8,430 nucleotides of DNA from an uncultured Clostridia bacterium (lineage in GTDB: Bacteria > Bacillota_A > Clostridia > Christensenellales > Aristaeellaceae), in NCBI GenBank assembly GCA_946408865.1, contig CAMJTZ010000076.1:1-8430 (forward strand). Reading direction: 5' to 3'. The notes beneath the pieces are model-generated. The model had not been told where the DNA came from, searched no databases, and saw nothing but the letters and a program-made list of their open reading frames with translations. This document shows, piece by piece, positions 1,169-6,488 of this stretch. The translations under genes were made by a program, and so were the position numbers. Every line of letters starts with the position of its first letter. The stretch's first letter is position 1.

Positions 1169-1371
1169 TTACGGATCCGAAGCATAGAAGCAGTCATCTT
1201 CCTTACAATTGAAGGGACACCATCCGCCGGCCAGGGCGTTCAGCTGCTCCTCGGAGAGTTCATAGCCGGTTTCTTTGGCAATGGCCAGCAATTCCTCCTG
1301 GGTTTTAGCGTTTCCGATCTTTTGCTTCTGTTCGTCTGTCAGGGGCTGAGGATATTCTCGGGAATATTCAT
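1169..1371 (-). pseudogene. Nif11-like leader RiPP precursor, frame interrupted by an apparent one-base deletion
   Basis: From the ATG at 1371, placed 9 nt after AAAGGAG, the frame reads MNIPENILSP and then stops at TGA. The frame one base back continues LTDEQKQKIG, a helical stretch KTQEELLAIAKETGYELS, EEQLNALAGG and WCPFNCKEDDCFYASDP, then TAA at 1171-1169. Adding one C to the CCCC run (1342-1345) gives one continuous 67-residue peptide. The pattern 'E-E-L-L-A-x-A-K-E-x-G-Y-x-L-S-x-E-x-L' followed by ALAGG is that of Nif11-like leaders, whose precursors are cut after GG (residues 49-50) by C39-type peptidases during export. The remaining 17-residue core has three Cys (52, 56, 61), which could be crosslinked. 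The leader frame has no ATG, GTG or TTG of its own upstream. The break could be a sequencing error, real decay, or -1 slippage of tRNA-Pro on CCC before the TGA. The family call is confident; function is open. Confidence 0.82.
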
Positions 1372-1380
1372 GGACGCATT

Positions 1381-1387
1381 CTCCTTT
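1381..1387 (-). promoter_or_regulatory. Ribosome binding site of the Nif11-like peptide gene
   Basis: AAAGGAG on the minus strand, 9 nt before the ATG at 1371. It fixes MNIPEN as the N-terminus and shows that the leader frame is reached only after a frame change. Confidence 0.7.
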
Positions 1388-1430: not shown

Positions 1431-1459
1431 ATTATACAGCATAGAACGCTGATAAACAA
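1431..1459 (-). promoter_or_regulatory. Sigma-A-type promoter of the Nif11-like peptide gene
   Basis: On the minus strand, -35 TTGTTT (1459-1454), a 17-nt spacer, and a perfect -10 TATAAT (1436-1431). The predicted start is near 1424, giving a leader of about 50 nt. No other promoter this good is seen before the hydrolase, so it may drive both genes. Confidence 0.75.
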
Positions 1460-5647: not shown

Positions 5648-6130
5648 ATGTTCAGGGAAATGCGGCGTTTTAAGCAGCAGATCAGCGCGGAGGAGTGTAT
5701 TCAGATTCTGAAGGAACAGCCCCGGGGCGTACTCTCCGTGCTGGGGGATGATGATTATCCCTACGGCATTCCGATGGATCACTGGTACTGCGAGGAAAAC
5801 GGAAAACTGTACTTTCACTGTGCGAAGACCGGACATAAACTGGACGCCATACGGAGCCATGACAAGGTCAGCTACTGCGTATATGATCAGGGCTTCCGGA
5901 AGGAAGGCGACTGGGCGCTGAATATCCGCAGCGTCGTGGTTTTCTGCCGGGCGCGGATCGTGGATGATTCTGAGGAGGAACTGAAGCTGAAGATCGCGAC
6001 CTGCCTGTGCAGGAAATTCACGGACGATGAAGCGTATCTGCAGAAGGAACTGGCAAACGCCATGCCGCGCGCGGCGTTCCTGGAGCTGACGCCGGACTAC
6101 ATGACCGGAAAGCTCGTCAATGAAGCGTAA
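5648..6130 (+). CDS. NimA-like pyridoxamine 5'-phosphate oxidase-fold flavoprotein
   Basis: 160 residues. It belongs to the FMN-binding split-barrel superfamily that includes PNPOx and the NimA 5-nitroimidazole reductases. Visible features are the N-terminal helix ISAEECIQILKEQPRGVLSV (residues 12-31), strands GDDDYPYGIPMDHWYCEENG (33-52), the family block LYFHCAKTGHKLDAI (54-68), SYCVYD (75-80) and the strand RSVVVFCRARIV (94-105). This set, especially FHCAKTGHKLDAI, matches NimA-like proteins that bind FMN and are widespread in anaerobes. Nitroimidazole reduction is known only for some members and is not implied here. Length is normal. AAGGAGG (5632-5638) is 9 nt before the ATG. Its stop overlaps the ATG of the next ORF by 11 nt. 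Confidence 0.88.
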   Translation: MFREMRRFKQQISAEECIQILKEQPRGVLSVLGDDDYPYGIPMDHWYCEENGKLYFHCAKTGHKLDAIRSHDKVSYCVYDQGFRKEGDWALNIRSVVVFCRARIVDDSEEELKLKIATCLCRKFTDDEAYLQKELANAMPRAAFLELTPDYMTGKLVNEA

Positions 6131-6488
6131 GATCAGAAACGCGTGCATATCCTGCATCAGACGCCGGCTTTCAGCATCCAAAGAAGAGAAAGGACAAAGT
6201 GAAAACGTTGACCGGCTGCCCGCGGTTGAATCGACCGGAAGCAGCGTTCTGGTGGCGTACTTCTCCACGGACGATACCGTCCGCGCGGCGGCGTATACCG
6301 CTGCGGACGCCCTGTCCGCGGACCTGTTTGAGATTCAGCCTGCCGAGCCGTATACCGCGGACGATCTCAATTACCGTAACCGGCAAAGCCGGACGAGCAT
6401 CCTGGGACATATCGATATAGGTCAGGAGGAGCTGAAATCCATTCTCGGCAGCGGTGACGCGGCCGTCACGCTTTCCGTCACTCCGTAA
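6120..6488 (+). CDS. Internally deleted flavodoxin / cyclophilin-like fusion protein (remnant)
   Basis: 122 residues. Residues 43-92 (VLVAYFSTDDTVRAAAYT, then ADLFEIQPAEPYTADDLNYRN) resemble the first strand, phosphate loop and second strand of clostridial flavodoxins. The FMN phosphate loop, normally Y-F-S-x-T-G-N/T-T, is altered to YFSTDDTV. After residue 92 the rest of a flavodoxin (about 100 residues) is missing. Residues 95-120 (LGHIDIGQEELKSILGSGD, then a TLSV strand) look like the last segment of a cyclophilin-like beta-barrel domain, which is found downstream of flavodoxin in some Clostridia proteins. The ORF therefore looks like the two ends of such a fusion joined in frame. Residues 1-42 are basic and low in hydrophobicity, not a signal peptide. 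It overlaps the NimA-like gene by 11 nt and lacks a good ribosome binding site. It is unlikely to bind FMN. Confidence 0.6.
   Translation: MKRKIRNACISCIRRRLSASKEEKGQSENVDRLPAVESTGSSVLVAYFSTDDTVRAAAYTAADALSADLFEIQPAEPYTADDLNYRNRQSRTSILGHIDIGQEELKSILGSGDAAVTLSVTP

Follow-up and report, generated by a model that had tools for sequence, protein, structure and literature searches.

A Nif11-type RiPP precursor gene with a broken reading frame in an uncultured Clostridia bacterium: probably a recently lost copy of a multi-copy family

Precursors of the prochlorosin family have been classed with Nif11 precursors, as stated in the available extract of PMC10783134, and the extract of PMC10027976 describes pseudogenes as a common feature of prochlorosin-family precursors. 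In the extracts of the open-access literature that our searches returned, we found no report of frameshifting in Nif11 precursors. The sequence CCC_UGA is itself a documented +1 shift site according to the extract of PMC5009743. Here we analyse a stretch of 8,430 nucleotides from an uncultured Clostridia bacterium (hereafter the window), which carries on its minus strand a Nif11-type precursor gene that is interrupted by a stop codon shortly after its start. We propose that this gene, a member of a Nif11 RiPP precursor family with multiple copies in uncultured Clostridia, was probably inactivated recently by a frameshift in codons 9-11. The elements of the gene and of its upstream region are as follows.

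1339 to 1371, minus strand: frame 0, encoding MNIPENILSP, from ATG at 1371-1369 to TGA at 1341-1339 (sequence and frame translation)
1342 to 1345, minus strand: CCCC run abutting the TGA, the place of the frame change (sequence)
1169 to 1342, minus strand: -1 frame with the rest of the leader and the core, 57 residues, ending at TAA 1171-1169 (Pfam Nif11 and match to the homologue P0001)
1381 to 1386, minus strand: Shine-Dalgarno-like AAGGAG, 9 bases 5' of the ATG (sequence)
1431 to 1459, minus strand: promoter-like elements TTGTTT (1459-1454) and TATAAT (1436-1431) with a 17-base spacer (sequence)

An earlier note on this DNA had read the ATG frame as ending after 10 codons at CCC TGA, with the leader continuing in the -1 frame towards ALAGG as cleavage site and a core of 17 residues, three of them Cys. 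These coordinates are confirmed, and cleavage site and core are present in the -1 frame translation as ALAGG / WCPFNCKEDDCFYASDP, with the length and Cys count given. No single open frame runs from the start through the core, the TGA intervening after 10 codons. Moreover, the leader frame contains no ATG, GTG or TTG from the preceding stop up to 1342 (third-frame translation), so that an alternative upstream start does not explain the leader.

The 57 residues of the -1 frame, taken alone, score 27.7 bits against Pfam Nif11 (cut-off 23.8, E 3.3e-6). Against TIGR03798 the same residues reach 26.6 bits, below the cut-off of 32.3, and five of five intact relatives (P0001, P0002, P0003, P0008 and L040) also stay below that cut-off, at 24.1-29.1. 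Of 200 candidates in a search with the 57 residues, 197 are homologues at E <= 1e-3, the best at 2.2e-29; the details of homologues given here rest on 120 of the 197, namely those among the matches listed. Together, the Nif11 score and the homologue search indicate that the leader match in the -1 frame is not due to chance. The closest homologue, P0001, is an uninterrupted protein of 67 residues with 95% identity over the 57 residues, followed by P0002 (86%) and P0003 (83%), and the N-terminus of the close homologues P0001-P0004 is MNIPENILS, which here stands in the ATG frame. Since P0001 reads straight through, what the TGA separates here, the start and the 57 residues, is one protein in relatives; and as the N-terminal part is in frame 0 and the remainder in the -1 frame, the break is confined to codons 9-11. 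The GG site is followed by a Cys-rich core of the variable kind, the cores of the relatives differing widely among themselves. The earlier identification of the gene as a Nif11-like RiPP precursor whose frame is broken was right.

Some genomes carry the family many times over. The eleven homologue loci taken from genome contigs come mostly from uncultured Clostridiales, some of them from goat or sheep duodenum, and P0001 has matches in 10 of the 308 genomes of the family to which genome G001 belongs, with 15 matches in G001 and 8 in G003 (one broken G003 copy accounts for two of the 8). P0001 has no match among viral contigs, and positions 1000-1560 of the window have none among plasmids. One sheep duodenum genome carries, in locus L009 from 5001 onward, a 119-residue precursor with a Nif11 leader and a core of tandem TGPL repeats.

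Is the gene equipped for expression? Promoter and ribosome binding site had both been called near consensus, and this view stands only in part. The TATAAT is there; the -35-like TTGTTT has just 3 of 6 consensus matches, and a promoter consensus scan of both strands of 1000-1850 passed no candidate. The AAGGAG does look like a real ribosome binding site, judging from its sequence, because nearly the same stretch (AAGGAGAATG..TCC) lies 5' of the precursor in the relative L081. About 90 bases upstream of the promoter-like elements, at 1548-1579 on the minus strand, there is a terminator-like hairpin of 13 pairs with T after it. No Rfam family reached its gathering score anywhere in the window.

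How intact is this gene in its relatives? We considered 25 distinct relative gene copies, defined as those whose match spans codons 8-13 of P0001; tblastn matches not spanning these codons (e.g. L043, L046, L048 and L061, which is partly masked), repeated hits to one and the same place, and the weak match G001:C102 were left out. The frame is open in 21 of the 25, so that the case of a plain pseudogene with the whole region degraded in relatives, which the earlier note had entertained, does not apply. The other four copies are broken, by two frameshifts, one nonsense mutation and one loss of the start.

L011: frame shifted around codon 19
L053 and L008, which are one place: frame shifted around codon 41
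L065, in one copy: nonsense mutation (stop) in codon 20
L064, in one copy: start codon missing

By genome, the broken copies are 2 of 6 in G003 and 2 of 14 in G001, whereas the remaining 5 copies, from five further genomes, are all open. G003 and G001 are draft genomes of uncultured bacteria, and their broken copies could in part be assembly errors. A start at codons 1-3 is present in 24 of the 25 copies, the one without being counted as broken; two open copies start with TTG, and in three open copies (L044, L055 and L057) a clean GG is missing. The breaks lie at differing places, as expected if paralogues arise and are lost, and not as expected of a common recoding site.

The geometry of the break had suggested to the earlier note that a tRNA on CCC could re-pair one base back, so that a corrective or programmed -1 frameshift, in which tRNA-Pro slips on CCCC at the stop, would let some ribosomes make the full precursor. 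There are indeed four C in a row, and a step of -1 leads into exactly the leader frame; beyond this geometry there is nothing in favour of recoding. The comparison of C-run lengths in relatives proposed in the earlier note goes against slippage, as CCCC occurs at codons 8-12 in 0 of the 25 copies, and none of the 120 listed homologues, whose alignments all include codon 10, has Pro there. The run being absent from relatives, no shift site is conserved; among the sequences examined CCCC is private to the broken copy, and on this comparison it looks more like a consequence of the break than like what caused it. The direction is also wrong, since the shifts documented at CCC_UGA go by +1 (PMC5009743, in its available extract), and a +1 shift here leads into the third frame, a dead end with a stop after 11 codons. 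Nor is there a stimulator in view: by eye, no Shine-Dalgarno-like stretch lies within 30 bases upstream of CCCC, and folding of the downstream 50, 70 and 90 bases (energies -1.3, -7.5 and -14.4) is not stronger than that of composition shuffles (means of 200 shuffles -4.2, -8.2 and -15.3). Both signs of programmed frameshifting, a conserved shift site and a stimulating signal, are thus lacking here, and the window has the heptamer CCCCTGA at three sites, both strands counted, the one in the broken gene included. We therefore regard -1 slippage as highly improbable, and we hold just as little to a variant of it, in which a real break is offset by a corrective -1 slip, recent in origin and private to this copy, that keeps the gene working at low level and so throttles one precursor among many. 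Internal initiation on an N-terminally shortened precursor, whether at CTG 1342, which overlaps the stop, or at TTG 1291, seems to us improbable as well, if slightly less so. A 40-residue open frame does begin at TTG 1291 with AGGAGG just upstream; however, only 2 bases separate the AGGAGG from the TTG, less than is usual for a ribosome binding site, and the AGGAGG falls inside the codons of the conserved EELL stretch, so that it may be coincidental. Internal initiation would also depart from the start at codons 1-3 that all relative copies but one possess.

This leaves as leading accounts the two ordinary alternatives that the earlier note had correctly named, a recent mutation and a one-base sequencing or assembly error. 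An error, by which the gene would be intact in the organism and the break would exist in the record only, is the main rival to a recent loss and, in our judgement, rather unlikely. It would fit well with the intact remainder of the gene and its 95% identity to the uninterrupted P0001. In addition, the 120 listed homologues, the shortest of 58 residues, include no protein for a broken allele, even though the 40-residue open frame fell inside the searched length range. Gene callers often skip such short frames, so that the absence of a broken-allele protein says little. Against an error, the larger genes of the window are open as reading frames (402, 404 and 396 codons, two acetyltransferases and others); by this measure the record does not have the look of one generally ridden with indels. 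What speaks against a recent loss is that at 95% identity no further decay is visible, which would equally fit a sequencing error or an allele in use; the same intactness is also compatible with a very recent loss. Recent loss, which we consider the probable explanation, has as its observed part the frame break, the intact close homologues, the lack of a shift site in common with the relatives examined and the existence of other broken copies in relatives.

What would the intact members of the family do? The relative L081, in genome G195, is informative here; it is the locus of the best P0001 match in the search of 308 genomes, and L081 and L040 are one place. At 1601-2971 it has a radical SAM gene for a 456-residue product, ending 27 bases before the precursor. 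The product scores 59.4 bits against Pfam Radical_SAM and passes the SPASM-domain model TIGR04085 (45.4, cut-off 27). Against the named maturases it reaches 168.8 bits for TIGR04463, the best of them (cut-off 525), 160.9 for TIGR04334 (cut-off 600), 107.3 for PapB (cut-off 340) and 73.5 for the Nif11-peptide maturase TIGR04064 (cut-off 518.7); with scores so far below the cut-offs, the enzyme belongs to no named subfamily scanned. The closest solved sequence is that of the radical SAM protein 5wgg (E 6.3e-13). A homologue with 50% identity lies in locus L078 of G001, on a stretch that also carries a C39 exporter domain, and among the loci searched these two places alone have a radical SAM gene of this type. 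In the window, tblastn with the L081 maturase gave no homologue, and no exporter was seen among the proteins scanned. In all five relative genomes tested a C39 domain and a SPASM domain are present. The C39 proteins of L076 and L077 are identified as NHLM_micro_ABC1 (924.4 and 918.1, cut-off 853.3), each beside an ABC2-type partner (710.1 in L076 and 700.6 in L077, cut-off 709.4). The related maturase is thus found in two relative genomes and NHLM-type C39 exporters are found in two. One of the five genomes, G113, has a C39 domain and no P0001-like precursor, and so the exporter alone is not a marker of the precursor family. A lanthipeptide and a thiazole/oxazole route were considered for the relatives and set aside, LanC-like domains occurring in 0 of the 5 genomes (1 of 14 controls) and YcaO in 0 of the 5 (5 of 14 controls).

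We would expect, then, that in intact members the Cys-rich core is modified by a radical SAM enzyme, maybe encoded elsewhere in the genome, and that the peptide is afterwards cut behind GG and exported by an NHLM-type C39 peptidase/ABC exporter. The broken copy would give only a peptide of 10 residues and no product. Its loss would be tolerated because sister precursors use one common enzyme set.

Two further genes in the window, beside the broken precursor, are present as remnants, namely a flavodoxin and a rhomboid C-terminus; both agree with a locus that loses genes. The truncated flavodoxin, at 6120-6488 on the plus strand, covers columns 2-53 of the 155 of Flavodoxin_4 (52 of 155 columns); residues outside the match follow, and it ends next to a DNA polymerase IV-like gene. 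At 1634-1786, also on the plus strand, a short frame resembles the C-terminus of a rhomboid protease (columns 102-141 of 143) at 21.6 bits, just under the cut-off of 22.6. Downstream of the precursor, at 1-1089 on the minus strand, lies an alpha/beta hydrolase whose C-terminus continues into a stretch, VLRVGTAGDY..., that resembles the start of a solute-binding domain; homologues of the hydrolase in L028 and L029 can be aligned as far as residues 358 and 348, and L036 carries a similar stretch after a presumably VanX-like domain. Among the 150 genomes drawn, 119 had a match to the serine dehydratase, the best being G113 (84%). When DNA 1-1800 was compared with 28 genomes of the genus of G113, 11 genomes gave matches, in 14 rows: 12 in the hydrolase gene, one at its solute-binding-like end (10-73) and one of 26 bases at 1514-1539. 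None of the 14 rows covers the precursor, so that these 28 genomes offer no same-locus relative of it, and P0001 itself has a match in 0 of the 28. A joint function with the downstream hydrolase was considered and discarded, as the hydrolase homologues in this genus sit in genomes without a P0001 match.

For annotation the point is a small one: precursors of this family are short, can be many per genome and are sometimes broken, and a broken frame without conserved signals is not to be taken as recoding. Rescue by frameshifting, were it nevertheless true, would make this natural-product precursor a striking example of corrective recoding. For peptide discovery, uncultured Clostridia offer a modest lead with their set of Nif11 precursors, an NHLM exporter and a radical SAM maturase that falls in none of the named subfamilies scanned.

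How, more generally, does this locus compare with known systems? With the Nif11-derived peptides (N11P; PF07862, TIGR03798), as characterised in the available extract of PMC2887384, it shares a leader with the ELSEEQLNALAGG motif, a GG site and a variable Cys-rich core, as well as many copies in some genomes and NHLM exporters (TIGR03796, TIGR03797-type partners) in relatives. Unlike N11P it has a frame broken between codons 9 and 11, a TIGR03798 score below the cut-off, and a leader of about 50 residues, against the average of about 70 originally described (in the same extract of PMC2887384). It resembles the radical SAM-matured Cys-rich RiPPs (TIGR04463, TIGR04334, PapB, TIGR04064) in that a maturase-like gene adjoins the precursor in L081, and differs from them in that this maturase scores below the cut-offs and the window has no such gene. 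From the prochlorosins, which are lanthipeptides, it is set apart by the LanC-like result in the relative genomes. What it has in common with the pseudogene precursors of the prochlorosin family, as the extract of PMC10027976 presents them, is the presence of broken copies among many paralogues that are served by common enzymes.
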